NCBI GenBank assembly: GCA_028715885.1
Contig: JAQUQX010000018.1
Coordinates: 1 to 32,752, forward strand
Length of the DNA stretch: 32,752 nt
From: Candidatus Methanoperedens sp.
GTDB taxonomy: Archaea; Halobacteriota; Methanosarcinia; Methanosarcinales; Methanoperedenaceae
Reading direction: 5' to 3'
The notes beneath the pieces are model-generated. The model had not been told where the DNA came from, did no database searches, and saw only the letters and a program-made list of their open reading frames with translations. Positions 10,644-19,538 of the stretch are shown here, piece after piece. The position numbers and the translations under genes are program-made. Within the stretch, counting starts at the first letter, position 1; each line of letters starts with the position of its first letter.

Positions 10644-11168
10644 TCACATCTTCAAATTTTTGAATTTTTTTATTTTTTCCATAGCCTCTTCTATAATACC
10701 CGGCTCTATCCAAAAAACCTGCGGGTTATCTCCGAATTTCAAAAGAATACCTAAAGCCTCTCCTTCATTAATTAACCCTGCCTTCAATGCATCAAACAAA
10801 ACCCCTATGCTGCCCTTAACCCTGAGTCCTTCCCTTTTAGCAGCATTTCTTCCTTCTCTTTCATTCATGAGTATAAGCTGGGCGCCCGTCTCCAAAGCAA
10901 GCTGAATCGAATCCGCCTCGCCTCTATGGATGAGGTATTTTTCAACCAGGTGCTGAGAAGATGATTTCGGATTTTTGACATGAATACTCCTGCCAATGTA
11001 ATTTTGAACAACTCCAGCGTCCTCTTTTTCAAGAAGATTTCCTTCCACAACCACCTCTCTGTAAACCTCATTTGTGATTAAAATTTCCTTATACAGGGAG
11101 AAGAGAATTTCAATCTGACCTACTTTAGCAAGGTGAATTAGAGGCGTTGAATCGCTCACTACAATCAT
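10644..11168 (-). CDS. DUF3368 PIN-like toxin
   Basis: A 174-aa protein with the DUF3368/PIN-like layout: the N-terminal SDSTPLIHLAKVG (D6), the middle GEADSIQLALE (E84, D86), and the motif LILMNEREGRNAAKREGL near 98-115, followed by KGSIGVL. PIN proteins are Mg-dependent RNases, and DUF3368 proteins are typically paired with UPF0175 antitoxins. It overlaps the upstream UPF0175/RHH gene by 4 nt. In many DUF3368 proteins the position before EREGR is Asp; here it is N102, which might lower metal binding. It is probably a toxin, or a weakened one. The target is unknown. Confidence 0.8.
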   Translation of the reverse strand: MIVVSDSTPLIHLAKVGQIEILFSLYKEILITNEVYREVVVEGNLLEKEDAGVVQNYIGRSIHVKNPKSSSQHLVEKYLIHRGEADSIQLALETGAQLILMNEREGRNAAKREGLRVKGSIGVLFDALKAGLINEGEALGILLKFGDNPQVFWIEPGIIEEAMEKIKKFKNLKM

Positions 11169-11470
11169 GCAGTGTCCTCAATAAGTTCCTCTTTGCCGTA
11201 GCGGATATATACACCTCTTTTTCCAAACTCATCCAGAGTCTCCCTCAGGGTAAGTTCCATGAGGTCTGCAGCCTGCCGGATGGTTATTTTCCCTTTTGTG
11301 TAAAGTTCAGCAGCCCTATCTACAGATTCCTTCCTGCCATACTCTTTAAGAACCTTCCTTATGCCATCCCTTATTACCTCGGACAGGTTGGAGTAATGCC
11401 TGCCTATAAGGTATTTTTCCACATCCTTTTCAAGTTCAATTGGAAGGGTTATGGTTTTTTTGATGTACAT
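11165..11470 (-). CDS. Antitoxin: ribbon-helix-helix plus UPF0175 domain
   Basis: A 101-aa protein. Residues 1-45 look like a ribbon-helix-helix DNA-binding domain (MYIKKTITLPIELEKDVEKY, then YSNLSEVIRDGIRKVLKEYG). Residues about 50-95 match UPF0175: DRAAELYTKGKITIRQAADLM, then FGKRGVYIRYG. UPF0175 proteins are antitoxins of DUF3368 toxins, and this one overlaps that toxin gene by 4 nt. AGAGGT lies 8 nt before the ATG. The start sits beside an 8+8 bp palindrome (11475-11495) that overlaps both the probable TATA and the ribosome binding site, which fits autoregulation by the RHH domain. Confidence 0.82.
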   Translation of the reverse strand: MYIKKTITLPIELEKDVEKYLIGRHYSNLSEVIRDGIRKVLKEYGRKESVDRAAELYTKGKITIRQAADLMELTLRETLDEFGKRGVYIRYGKEELIEDTA

Positions 11471-11474
11471 CTTT

Positions 11475-11495
11475 TATACCTCTTTATGAGGTATA
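11475..11495 (-). promoter_or_regulatory. Palindromic operator overlapping TA promoter and ribosome binding site
   Basis: The perfect inverted repeat TATACCTC-TTTAT-GAGGTATA lies 5 nt upstream of the antitoxin ATG (minus strand). One arm contains the AGAGGTA ribosome binding site and the other AT-rich flank could be the TATA box. This is the expected layout of a conditional-cooperativity toxin-antitoxin operator, but it would also form an RNA hairpin hiding the ribosome binding site. Confidence 0.6.
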
Positions 11496-11611
11496 TGGAA
11501 TTCGATATATATTATGACTTCGCTGACCAGTCGAGGCAAATGGTCCTTAATCGGATAAAGCATTTTTAGGCGCCACATATTTATTACTTTACAAATATTT
11601 AATCTCGGCGG

Positions 11612-12172
11612 CTAAACAAATACTTTTCCGACAATATTTTTTTTCTTTACGCACGAATCCACATAAAATATAATTGTTTCTGGATTAATCTCTTTTCCAA
11701 CATAATTTTCTTTGAGATATATTCCTAGTGTTTCATAAAAAGAAAGAGAAGCCTTATTTTGTAGTGTAACTTCTCTTTTTAAATTCCCATATGTGTATTT
11801 ACCAATCTCGCTATAGTTTCCGATAGTTGCGTCCCCTTTACGCAGTACTAATATTGTATCGTCTGAAATCTCGTTTTTGTCAGCATCTTTGAGCGTCAGT
11901 TTTATTCTATTCACATTTATTCGTTGATCCGTTGAAATTGGTTTAAGTGTAATTATTGCGTTTATTCCGAAACACTTAGAATTTGTCTTAACATAATCAC
12001 CGTCATCCTTGGTCAGAATATCGTCTCTACAATCCCATTCTTTAGGTTTTCCAATATTTTTCACGTCTATCTCGATTATGTCACCTTGATTTATTCCCTC
12101 TGTTACTCTTAGCTCTTCAGGAATAGTTATTCTGAAATTCTTATCCGTCACAATTATTGTGGTTTTTGTCAT
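11612..12172 (-). CDS. AbrB/SpoVT-like N-terminal domain protein of unknown function
   Basis: A 186-aa protein. Residues about 8-40 fit a swapped-hairpin AbrB DNA-binding fold (FRITIPEELRVTEGINQGDIIEI). The remaining ~145 residues are polar and beta-rich with three scattered Cys (near DCRDD, SKCFG and DSCVK) and match nothing I recognise. Local GC content is lower than in the flanking metabolic genes, suggesting acquisition. It is divergent from a damaged transglutaminase-like gene, and the gap contains nested palindromes that such a protein could bind. An antitoxin role is possible, but no partner toxin is visible. Confidence 0.6.
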   Translation of the reverse strand: MTKTTIIVTDKNFRITIPEELRVTEGINQGDIIEIDVKNIGKPKEWDCRDDILTKDDGDYVKTNSKCFGINAIITLKPISTDQRINVNRIKLTLKDADKNEISDDTILVLRKGDATIGNYSEIGKYTYGNLKREVTLQNKASLSFYETLGIYLKENYVGKEINPETIIFYVDSCVKKKNIVGKVFV

Positions 12173-16215: not shown

Positions 16216-16280
16216 CCTCTCAGGATAAGGTATAATCTGCCTCTCAAACAAAAAATCAAACAAGAGGCTTGAGGAAATAT

Positions 16281-17225
16281 ATGAAAGAAATCGCAAAACA
16301 GATAGAAGCCCGATTCTTGGAACTGGGCGTTAAGGTACAGACAGGCGAAATTGAAAACAAACTGGAACAACTGGTAAATCAGTACAAGGTTCCACCCGAA
16401 GAAGCGCGGAGAAACGTAATAAACTCTTTATTAAAGAAACACAATCTCCAGAAGTCGGATTTTTTTACGCCACGTGAAACACCGCAGGTAAAAGCATCAG
16501 ACATCAAGCAGGACGGGAAATGGGTTACACTGCGCGCAAAGGTTGTGCAGTTGTGGGACGCAAACCAGGAATCCATCTCGCAGGTGGGACTGCTGGGCGA
16601 TGAATCAGGGACAATAAAATTCACAAAATGGGCGAAAGCTTCGGCTCTGCCGACCTTAGAGGAAGGTAAGTGTTACATATTCAAGAATATAACCACCTCG
16701 GAATGGCAGGGGCAGTTCAGCGTCAAGATCAATAAGACAAGCGAGATAATCCCCATAAGCGAGGACATCGAGGTAGGCTCAACACCCACAGAATTCAGCG
16801 GCGCCATAGTAGATATACAGAGCGGCTCAGGTCTTATCAAGCGCTGCCCCGAGTGTAATCGAGCATTAGTCAAAGGCGCATGCGGAGAGCATGGGAAGGT
16901 GGAAGGGCTCTACGACCTCAGAGTGAAAGCTGTCATGGACGACGGCGAGCGGGTGCAGGACATCCTGTTGAACAGGGAAATCACTGAAGCTCTGACAGGC
17001 ATCACCCTTGAGAAAGCCAAGGAAATGGCAACCGAGGCTCTTGACCAGGCTGTTGTGCTTGACATGATAAAGAACAAGCTTGTGGGCAGGTACTATGTGG
17101 TGGCAGGAGCAAAGCTTGACAGGTTCATACTCGTGGAGACCATCAGGCAGGATGTGAAGCCGATAGAAGAGGACATAAAGAGGCTGCTTGCGACCTCTGC
17201 CGCGCCGATTGCACAGGAGGCGTAA
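16281..17225 (+). CDS. Replication protein A (single-stranded DNA-binding protein)
   Basis: A 314-aa euryarchaeal RPA. I start it at the ATG at 16281, preceded by GAGG at 16271-16274; a TTG four codons earlier is less likely. An N-terminal helical region (1-60) is followed by an OB fold at about 75-155 (VTLRAKVVQLWDAN, LLGDESGTIKFTKW, CYIFKN), then a zinc finger with C189, C192, C201 and H204, and an alpha/beta C-domain. It coats single-stranded DNA in replication, repair and recombination. Its partner gene follows after 3 nt, the usual RPA operon. Confidence 0.9.
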   Translation: MKEIAKQIEARFLELGVKVQTGEIENKLEQLVNQYKVPPEEARRNVINSLLKKHNLQKSDFFTPRETPQVKASDIKQDGKWVTLRAKVVQLWDANQESISQVGLLGDESGTIKFTKWAKASALPTLEEGKCYIFKNITTSEWQGQFSVKINKTSEIIPISEDIEVGSTPTEFSGAIVDIQSGSGLIKRCPECNRALVKGACGEHGKVEGLYDLRVKAVMDDGERVQDILLNREITEALTGITLEKAKEMATEALDQAVVLDMIKNKLVGRYYVVAGAKLDRFILVETIRQDVKPIEEDIKRLLATSAAPIAQEA

Positions 17226-17228
17226 ATC

Positions 17229-17801
17229 ATGGCAGAGAACAACGGATTCACAAGGGAAGTAGCGCACCGCATATTCGCAGCGGAGTTTAAGGAGGCAAAC
17301 ATGCAGGTGAAGGAAGGGAGCGACCAGTACTCGCCGCAGTACCTCATCACCCCGACGGGCGCAAAGGTAAACCGCGTGTTCATCGTGGGCACGCTGACCG
17401 AGAAGGAGGACGTAGGCTCTGAGGCTGAGTTCTGGCGCGGGCGCATTGTCGATCCAACCGGCGCATTCTTCGTGACCGCGGGGCAGTACCAGCCAGAGGC
17501 TGCGCAGGTCTTATCGAGAACCACGCCGCCGGAATTTGTAGCGGTGATTGGGAAGCCGAGCACTTACACAACGAAAGAAGGTAACGTGCTCACATCGATA
17601 AGGGCTGAGTCCATGCAGGTTGTGGATGCGGCGACACGCGACAGGTGGGTTGTGGATGCTGCAAATCACACAACGAAGAGGCTGGAGAAGCTTGCGGGAA
17701 ATGAGCCCAATGCTGTGAAGGCGAAGGAGCATTACAACACGAATGCGGAAGCCTACAAAGCGATGGTGACGCAGGCGCTGGAGTCGGTGAGGGCACAATA
17801 G
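17229..17801 (+). CDS. RPA-associated protein (COG3390-type RPA family protein)
   Basis: A 190-aa protein starting 3 nt after the RPA stop, with GGAGG before the ATG. It has an OB-like segment, VNRVFIVGTLTEKEDVGSEAEFWRGRIVDPTGAFFVTAGQYQPEA at residues 40-84 in shortened form, and a C-terminal helical tail. That order, and its place in the operon, match the archaeal RPA-associated proteins that bind RPA and modulate its DNA binding. The block 17226-17800 is higher in GC than its neighbours downstream. An AT-rich stretch with TTTATTTTTAG just after the stop could act as terminator. Confidence 0.85.
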   Translation: MAENNGFTREVAHRIFAAEFKEANMQVKEGSDQYSPQYLITPTGAKVNRVFIVGTLTEKEDVGSEAEFWRGRIVDPTGAFFVTAGQYQPEAAQVLSRTTPPEFVAVIGKPSTYTTKEGNVLTSIRAESMQVVDAATRDRWVVDAANHTTKRLEKLAGNEPNAVKAKEHYNTNAEAYKAMVTQALESVRAQ

Positions 17802-17864
17802 GGGTGCCCTTTATTTTTAGAATTTATCACAATTTAGTAGTCGAACATTAAATGAGGTGAAATA

Positions 17865-18440
17865 ATGAATGATAATTTAACAAAGGCAAAAATAAATCTG
17901 AACGAAGGAACAATCGAATTGGAAGGTGCTGAAGGATTCGTACAAAAGAACCTTGATGTCTTTAAGGATTTTATCTCTCAACCGATAAAAACGTCTTCTA
18001 AAGAAGTAGAAGCTAATGATGCTGAAATAAAACAATCTAACGATTTCAAAACAAAACAGTCCAACAATGGTATAAAAAAATATAAACCTTCAAGATTAGA
18101 TAATGTATCCCCAGAAGAATTTGACATTAGTTGCGATGGTGTCATCCCATTTAAAGATTTTTTCAACGATAAAAAACCATCTCGTACAGCCCCTGAAATG
18201 ATCGCAGTGACTGGATTTTATTTGAAACATTACTTAAAAAAAGAGGAATTTTCAGAGGGTAATGTAATGTATGCATATGTAGCAGTTGGAGTTAAAAGAC
18301 CTGTAAGAGTGCATAAAGCGTTCCAAGATACAAAAGATAGGCTGCACTGGGTAACAAAAGGAAGTTCTGTAGGTAAATGGATTTTATCTCAGATTGGAGA
18401 AGATTATGTGCTACATGACCTCCCCAATACAAAAAAATAA
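17865..18440 (+). CDS. Unrecognised protein with winged-helix-like C-terminal domain; first gene of a putative defence-like module
   Basis: A 191-aa soluble protein with a GAGGTGA ribosome binding site. Residues about 8-40 hold the short motif INLNEGTIELEGAEGFVQK. A low-complexity Lys/Asn/Ser linker follows (about 45-80). The C-terminal ~90 residues (from SRTAPEMIAVTGFYLKHYL to GEDYVLHDLPN) look like a compact helical domain. That domain aligns by eye with residues 25-92 of the next gene product: [A/G]-F-Y-x-K, then E-x-F-[ST]-x-x-N-V, a K-[PR]-P-x-x-[IV] turn, and a W/I-x-x-x-G-x-x-x-L-x hairpin. GC is low compared with the RPA genes upstream. I do not recognise a named family; the PLD partner suggests defence or stress function, by inference. 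Confidence 0.6.
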   Translation: MNDNLTKAKINLNEGTIELEGAEGFVQKNLDVFKDFISQPIKTSSKEVEANDAEIKQSNDFKTKQSNNGIKKYKPSRLDNVSPEEFDISCDGVIPFKDFFNDKKPSRTAPEMIAVTGFYLKHYLKKEEFSEGNVMYAYVAVGVKRPVRVHKAFQDTKDRLHWVTKGSSVGKWILSQIGEDYVLHDLPNTKK

Positions 18441-18460
18441 ATTTGTTGTGAGGAATAAAA

Positions 18461-19204
18461 TTGAAAGTTATAATTTCAGATTTTATTGATAAGAAACCTA
18501 ATTTTTCAAGCCTTTCACAAGCAGAGCAGGTTAAATACCTTGCTTATTTTTATATTAAGACAACGAATGATGAAATTTTCACGCCACAAAATGTTAAAAC
18601 TTATTTTGAACTGGCAAACTTACCAAAACCAAAAAATATTCCTGACGTCTTTAAGAAATTAAAAGAGAAAAATATATTTATTTCATCCCAAAATGGCTAT
18701 ATATTACACAGAGACGCCCTTAAGGAATTAGATAAAGAGTTCTCCGATTACGAAAAAGAAACTCACGAAGACAAGTATGAATGGATTTATGATAAAGGGG
18801 AAAATTACGATATTTACAAGGATATCAGAACAATTGTAAAAAAGGCTGCAACAGAAGTGTTTATTGTTGATGGTTATCCTGATGAGAACATTTATCAATT
18901 ATATTTAGATGAAATTCCAAATGAAGTAAGAATAAAATTTTTGACAAATCGTCCTCAAGGAAAATTCCTAAATGTCACTCAATTATGGATGAAAAATCCA
19001 AAGAAAAAATTAGCTATTAAAAAAGGTGAAATTCATGATCGAGCAATTTTTGTTGATAATAATGAATGTTGGGTTCTTGGTGCTTCAATAAAAGACGCTG
19101 GTAACAAACCCACATACTTGATTAAAATCAGAAATAAAAATAAAATGTATTCGATTTATTCTGAAATTTTCAATAGAGGTCAAAATATTTTTCTAACCCC
19201 CTAA
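18461..19204 (+). CDS. Winged-helix-like domain fused to PLD-type nuclease-like domain
   Basis: A 247-aa protein 20 nt after the previous gene, with TGAGGAAT as ribosome binding site and a TTG start at 18461. Residues about 20-95 form a helical domain (YLAYFYIKTTNDEIFTPQNV, then PKPKNIPDVFKKLKEK and NGYILHRDALKELD) like the C-domain of the upstream protein. Residues about 118-245 look phospholipase-D-like: beta strand EVFIVDGYPDE, then the single active-site motif H192-x-R194-x4-D199 and GASIKDAG at 207-214. Arg replaces the Lys of the classic HxK motif, a form common in standalone PLD domains of defence-associated proteins. Such proteins usually dimerise to complete the site. Substrate and target are unknown. 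Confidence 0.65.
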   Translation: MKVIISDFIDKKPNFSSLSQAEQVKYLAYFYIKTTNDEIFTPQNVKTYFELANLPKPKNIPDVFKKLKEKNIFISSQNGYILHRDALKELDKEFSDYEKETHEDKYEWIYDKGENYDIYKDIRTIVKKAATEVFIVDGYPDENIYQLYLDEIPNEVRIKFLTNRPQGKFLNVTQLWMKNPKKKLAIKKGEIHDRAIFVDNNECWVLGASIKDAGNKPTYLIKIRNKNKMYSIYSEIFNRGQNIFLTP

Positions 19205-19235
19205 CTTTTATGCTAGACTTTAGAGGCTATTAAAG

Positions 19236-19538
19236 ATGCTATCAAAAGAAGAAATCATAACAATCTTAAAAAAAGAACTACCCTATTTAAGAGATATTTT
19301 CGGCGTAAAAAGAATCGGCTTATTCGGGTCTTCCGCAAAAGGAATCCAGAGAGAAGACAGCGATGTCGATCTCGTTGTGGAATTTGAGAAGCCAATAGGC
19401 TTGAAATTCATTGAACTATCGGATTATATCGAAAACGTCCTCGGGAAAAAGGTGGACATCCTGACTCCCGTAGGCATCAAAAGTATACGAGTAAAAAAAG
19501 TCGCAGAAGATATTAAAAAGAACATCGTTTATGTCTGA
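19236..19538 (+). CDS. MNT-type nucleotidyltransferase (antitoxin-like)
   Basis: A 100-aa minimal nucleotidyltransferase. G31-S32 and D43/D45 form the GSx10DxD motif (LFGSSAKGIQREDSDVDLVV), followed by the usual IGLKFIELSDYIENVLGKKVDIL. MntA-type proteins AMPylate a HEPN RNase toxin and neutralise it. Here the gene is followed not by HEPN but by a UPF0175-like gene, overlapping by 8 nt. There is no HEPN-like ORF (RX4-6H) close by. It is either an orphan antitoxin or part of an unusual pair. Confidence 0.85.
   Translation: MLSKEEIITILKKELPYLRDIFGVKRIGLFGSSAKGIQREDSDVDLVVEFEKPIGLKFIELSDYIENVLGKKVDILTPVGIKSIRVKKVAEDIKKNIVYV

Follow-up and report, generated by a model that had tools for sequence, protein, structure and literature searches.

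Two small adjacent genes of Candidatus Methanoperedens sp., here called gene1 and gene2, probably make up a small defence or toxin module that has not yet been named. They lie within a 32,752-nucleotide stretch of DNA that was analysed at its full length (the window; contig 18 of a 2.09 Mb archaeal genome), and the explanation we favour, with moderate confidence, is that they form a compact conflict module (anti-virus or anti-plasmid, similar to toxin-antitoxin systems) that was acquired at a hotspot for defence systems lying behind RPA2. The arguments for a module are the absence of the pair from 30 other genomes of the genus, its AT-richness, its position in a variable slot, a match of gene2 to the PADLOC defence candidate PDC-S05, the conservation of the gene2 HxRx4D motif, the genetic surroundings of related PLD proteins, the recurrence of the layout with other partners and the domain common to both proteins. 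The locus is organized as follows.

17229-17801, + strand: RPA2-like gene, left border of the variable defence slot, outside the module
17854-17859, + strand: Shine-Dalgarno-like sequence GAGGTG of gene1, 5 nt ahead of the ATG
17865-18440, + strand: gene1, 191 aa, ATG start; N-terminal motif domain, polar linker, C-terminal wHTH-like domain
18448-18453, + strand: Shine-Dalgarno-like sequence GTGAGG of gene2, 7 nt ahead of the TTG
18461-19204, + strand: gene2, 247 aa, TTG start; N-terminal wHTH-like domain and C-terminal PLD-fold domain
19236-19538, + strand: MNT nucleotidyltransferase (NTP_transf_2), right neighbour of gene2, outside the module

Both ORFs are intact and co-directional, and the 20-nt spacing between them is as the original prediction had described. 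Their AT-richness against the neighbours was likewise confirmed, the GC content being 0.335 for gene1 and 0.286 for gene2 versus 0.442 for the window, 0.574 for RPA2 and 0.519 for thiL. Two RPA-like genes precede the pair (16269-17225 and 17229-17801); they were recognized by their own sequence and by genus-wide conservation, with no Pfam match above cut-off. On the 3′ side of gene2 follow the MNT gene, a UPF0175 gene and then thiL on the opposite strand, so that placing the pair beside toxin-antitoxin relics was a fair description. Another group of probable toxin-antitoxin genes lies on the − strand of the window (10644-12172), with RHH/UPF0175-like and PIN-like genes recognized by eye and a MazE-like AbrB domain with a weak Pfam match.

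The position behind RPA2 is the strongest evidence for a defence role of gene1-gene2. We located RPA2 orthologues in nine genomes of the same genus and inspected the genes 3′ of them. In three of the nine (G364, G430 and G429) the slot contains a complete Wadjet system, JetABCD, with JetA matching at E values of 1e-152 to 1e-170; JetB, JetC and JetD were found by profile in G364, and both G430 and G429 have matching ORFs in an identical arrangement. One further slot (G435) holds a JetA fragment at a contig end, and another (G433) a CBASS system with a cyclase (E 3e-120) and a 2TM effector. The remaining slots are occupied by a small unknown protein (three of nine) or an unrelated gene (one of nine); this non-defence or unknown cargo, in four of the nine sister genomes, counts against the defence reading. 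In G364, an MNT gene 78% identical to that at 19236 of the window comes right after JetD, which, together with the RPA2 border, indicates that gene1-gene2 occupies the slot filled by Wadjet in a sister species. The genus has a defence hotspot directly 3′ of RPA2; gene1-gene2 lies in this variable defence locus, and its defence context is well supported. We also observed that defence systems in the slot (17801-19236 of the window; L183-L191) are often trailed by MNT/HEPN toxin-antitoxin pairs.

As judged by sequence comparison, gene1 and gene2 carry related domains at their facing ends.

18147-18422, + strand: C-terminal wHTH-like domain of gene1, residues 95-186, a profile match
18476-18736, + strand: N-terminal wHTH-like domain of gene2, residues 6-92, an independent profile match

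A BLASTP alignment of the two proteins covers exactly these two domains (E 0.016), and its score was matched in 3 of 5,000 shuffles. Since our alignment A1 includes gene1 and gene2, its matches to them are circular, and the real test is an independent profile built from eight wHTH-like domains of other archaeal proteins, with both gene1 and gene2 left out. Among about 3,200 ORFs, this profile found the gene2 N-terminus at E 4.6e-8 and the gene1 C-terminus at E 1.9e-5 (9e-7 and 6e-4, respectively, when the gene1-like L040 sequence was also removed). Other wHTH-type proteins in the same ORF set, for example 136-aa neighbours, scored at E >1, so the profile is selective and does not catch any winged helix. 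BLASTP, shuffling and the independent profile thus show that the pattern which had been read by eye in the two domains is real. We infer the fold name 'winged helix' from helix order and weak wHTH matches: the N-terminal half of the gene2 model has helices at residues 20-34, 42-51 and 60-69 at low confidence, the best wHTH-type match among PDB sequences is marginal (MarR, E 0.14), and gene1 folded from its single sequence gave a pLDDT of 34. The shared domain family is without a Pfam, NCBIfam or PADLOC entry.

Gene1 as a whole found no match in Pfam, NCBIfam, PADLOC or PHROGs. Its N-terminal part contains a motif common to archaeal gene1-type proteins.

17889-17963, + strand: N-terminal motif of gene1, residues 9-33, INLNEGTIELEGAEGFV

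A motif profile built without gene1 recovered residues 9-33 at E 0.0013 among 3,390 ORFs, as the best new match once clear family members are put aside, and BLASTP of gene1 with the L040 protein gave E 7e-4. The short element INLNEGTIELEG, which the original prediction had called conserved-looking and a possible sensor of a ligand or partner, turned out to recur at the N-terminus alongside the same wHTH elsewhere, as GEIEVEG (L040), ATVEVEG (L143), VTVDVEG (L180) and VSVELSG (L181), and motifs of this type occur with the same wHTH in both Archaeoglobi-like and halophilic archaea. Gene1 therefore appears to carry the N-terminal motif domain of archaeal gene1-type proteins, with modest support; its membership of the wHTH and motif families is likewise modestly supported, at E values of 1e-5 to 1e-3, which weighs against the favoured explanation. 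When the haloarchaeal gene1 group was compared with gene1 profile to profile (hhalign), no significant match resulted (E 0.36), and the link between them runs via proteins of the L040 and L143 type, not directly.

The C-terminal half of gene2 has a PLD fold.

18773-19171, + strand: PLD-fold domain of gene2, residues 105-237, homologue of the C-terminal half of PDC-S05 (ORF6N-PLD)
19034-19057, + strand: HxRx4D motif (H192, R194, D199), identified in the sequence
19079-19096, + strand: GASIKD, residues 207-212, corresponding to GS..N in the HKD motif

Both motifs (H192-D-R194..D199 and GASIKD) are present as had been described. Gene2 gave no Pfam or NCBIfam match above cut-off, and hence none to a housekeeping family of PLD domains in these libraries. 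PDC-S05 matched at E 7e-21, over gene2 residues 84-236 and only positions 151-300 of the 306-position model, in agreement with the proposal that the domain is of a defence-linked type. ORF6N, which forms the N-terminus of the single-gene candidate PDC-S05, was looked for in gene2 by Pfam search and not found, while the same model matches L009 at 5e-30; gene2 is therefore not a PDC-S05 member. What they share is the homologous PLD-fold domain with HxRx4D...GxS and a small DNA-binding-type domain in front of it; in gene2, however, the latter is the shared wHTH, and a partner gene carries the same domain. PDC-S05 is itself an unvalidated defence candidate, and experimental validation is lacking for most candidates of the PDC type (PMC12988326).

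The PLD-fold domain of gene2 was modelled mostly at pLDDT 70-94, and Foldseek matched the model to Salmonella Nuc, H. pylori NucT, Zucchini, FAM83, MITD1 and TrmB/TrmBL2. A genome-wide scan of 84,980 species for relatives carrying one exact motif returned 302, of which the sequences of the best 80 were read; these are nearly all ORF6N-PLD proteins, largely from gut Clostridia. HxRx4D is present in 78 of these best 80 of 302, and H192 is kept in 25 of 26 aligned homologues. The site is thus a variant, HxRx4D..GxS..D, conserved in homologues, and differs from the canonical HxKx4D..GS..N. Its conservation suggests catalysis, though the usual lysine is an arginine, so that activity is a prediction and the domain a probable nuclease. 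Counting against this, the PLD fold also occurs in non-catalytic proteins; TrmB, FAM83 and MITD1, all among the Foldseek matches of gene2, are examples. In single-motif PLD nucleases the active site forms across a dimer. Candidate wHTH-PLD relatives in gut Clostridia (query residues 17-236) were dropped, the ORFs being nearly all ORF6N-PLD.

The same structural matches raise the question of whether the pair encodes transcription regulators of the TrmB type, in which gene2 would combine a wHTH with a non-catalytic, ligand-binding PLD-fold domain and gene1 would be a co-regulator. Indeed, the top Foldseek matches are TrmBL2, with TrmB lower, and wHTH plus PLD fold is the TrmB architecture (the wHTH half of the gene2 model being of low confidence). 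The superposition on TrmBL2 is, however, poor (TM about 0.4, rmsd 17-27 Å); a Pfam search of gene2 returned no family at E ≤1, those of TrmB among them; and HxRx4D...GxS is nearly invariant across the best 80 of 302 homologues, unexpected for pure ligand binding. In addition, the locus is a defence hotspot and not beside a metabolic operon. Given the conserved catalytic-type motif and the lack of a TrmB sequence match, we consider a TrmB-like regulator quite unlikely.

The exact gene1-gene2 pair was found in none of 393 genomes of the phylum, in none of 30 other genomes of the genus and not among the best 80 of the 302 PLD relatives (from 84,980 species). Single-sequence searches of plasmid, phage and viral-contig collections gave no orthologue of the pair, and scans of viral sequences with the gene1, HEPN-partner and haloarchaeal gene2 alignments gave no matches; the weak hits that gene1 gave on plasmids of Klebsiella and Aminobacter (E 0.4-3) are regarded as chance similarities. 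The combination of gene1 with a PLD effector is thus known from a single, unreplicated instance, a point against the favoured explanation. The layout, however, does recur at six or more other loci, where a HEPN or HEPN-like partner takes the place of PLD. In five of them (L040, L045, L041, L139 and L141) a gene with the gene1-type motif and wHTH is followed directly by a nuclease-like, wHTH-bearing partner, and in L143 an inverted gene lies between the two. At the Archaeoglobi-like loci L040 and L045, the motif-plus-wHTH gene overlaps the partner gene, which has an Rx6H motif (RSKRGGAH and RNKKRVVH) followed by a C-terminal HTH-like segment, an arrangement opposite to gene2, where the wHTH is N-terminal to PLD. 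This Rx6H fits the Rx4-6H motif of HEPN RNases (PMC3710099). In the haloarchaeal two-gene units (L041:2518-3995, L139:3266-4692, L141:2338-3782), a gene1-related gene with a 'GPLxxE' motif and a C-terminal domain precedes a protein in which an N-terminal wHTH is fused to a HEPN-like domain bearing the motif NxxAH. The HEPN assignments are based on motif and context, no Pfam HEPN model being significant. On two halophile (haloarchaeal) plasmids (L144:3132-3947 and L145:3126-3938), the HEPN-like domain of the haloarchaeal gene2 proteins is fronted by AbiJ_NTD5.

The wHTH family also occurs with HEPN-type and HerA-like genes in larger archaeal cassettes (L032-L038). Undescribed cassettes of this kind (L032, L033, L034, L036, L037, L038 and L182) encode several small wHTH proteins, accompanied by a HEPN-type (Rx6H) protein, by a HerA-like ATPase or SF2 helicase, or by both. 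Several of the cassettes have motif-plus-wHTH genes beside a HEPN-type gene, but they are larger than the pair, at four to six genes, include the ATPase or helicase and lack PLD. It is possible, and we put it forward tentatively, that gene1-gene2 belongs to an undescribed family of archaeal immune systems as its branch armed with PLD. In this family a small motif-plus-wHTH adaptor would be combined, by way of a shared wHTH, with interchangeable effectors (a PLD nuclease and two kinds of HEPN or HEPN-like RNase); larger versions would also have a HerA-like ATPase. Effector swapping between HEPN and PLD nucleases is a likeness to AbiJ-NTD systems, where one N-terminal domain type is found on exchangeable effectors, HEPN and HKD/phospholipase D nucleases included (PMC3710099); these, however, have a single-protein layout, and their N-terminal domain is unrelated to the gene2 wHTH by the tests run. 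No named system with the composition of gene1-gene2 was found in the family libraries or the open-licence literature searched, in line with the original prediction.

PLD relatives of gene2 are found beside type I R-M genes, in haloviruses and on haloarchaeal plasmids. In the haloviruses HJTV-3 (L016:2563-3947), HRTV-16 (L164:2063-3423) and HRTV-9 (L165:2090-3423), a PDC-S05-like PLD protein comes after an integrase and is convergent with a wHTH gene, whose product in HJTV-3 weakly matches our wHTH profile (E 3e-5). One viral contig (L192:1796-3432) encodes an Abi-C/HEPN-like protein (RTRRGSAH) directly followed by a gene2-family PLD protein. The pair could accordingly be cargo of a mobile element, serving superinfection exclusion, DNA processing or regulation for the element and not the host, as the presence of a gene2-related PLD family beside a halovirus integrase and on plasmids would allow; ORF6N fusions, moreover, are common in viruses. 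We regard this as very unlikely: among the genes adjoining the pair in the window, none was recognized as an integrase or viral gene, and at the corresponding site sister species have entire defence systems of the host type, with no viral genes.

A classical type II toxin-antitoxin module that persists by addiction and lacks a dedicated sensor, with gene1 as DNA-binding antitoxin and autoregulator and gene2 as nuclease toxin, would share with the pair two small, adjacent, co-directional genes, the regulator first and the nuclease-like gene second. The small upstream partner with its polar linker and wHTH, the effector in second place, the 20-nt spacing, the adjoining MNT and UPF0175 genes and the MNT/HEPN toxin-antitoxin pairs that occupy the RPA2 slot in sister genomes all agree with this. 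The same domain type in both proteins is, however, atypical of toxin-antitoxin pairs, the layout is also found in larger cassettes with a HerA-like ATPase and extra wHTH proteins, and the slot holds dedicated defence systems, although toxin-antitoxin and defence roles are not exclusive. A module of the classical kind is, in our estimation, rather unlikely.

Under the favoured explanation of a compact conflict module, gene2 would be the effector, its HxR-type PLD-fold domain, probably a nuclease working as a dimer, being carried on the N-terminal wHTH-like domain. Gene1 would be the cognate partner, with the motif domain and the homologous wHTH-like domain separated by the polar linker. Because the two wHTH domains are homologous, hetero-pairing or binding to the same DNA is plausible, and most likely gene1 would restrain or place the PLD nuclease through wHTH-wHTH pairing or shared DNA binding; invasion would then release or direct the nuclease, with a presumed antiviral effect. 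For the role of gene1, neutralisation as in toxin-antitoxin relations fits as well as the sensor-effector relation that had been proposed.

If one wHTH family does pair with HEPN, PLD and HerA-like proteins across ten or more genera of archaea, it would represent a discoverable type of system. The domain shared by both partners offers a handle on how a two-gene module keeps its nuclease silent, and the RPA2 slot is a usable guide to further archaeal defence cargo. Should the adaptor reading be true, one adaptor logic would arm different nucleases.
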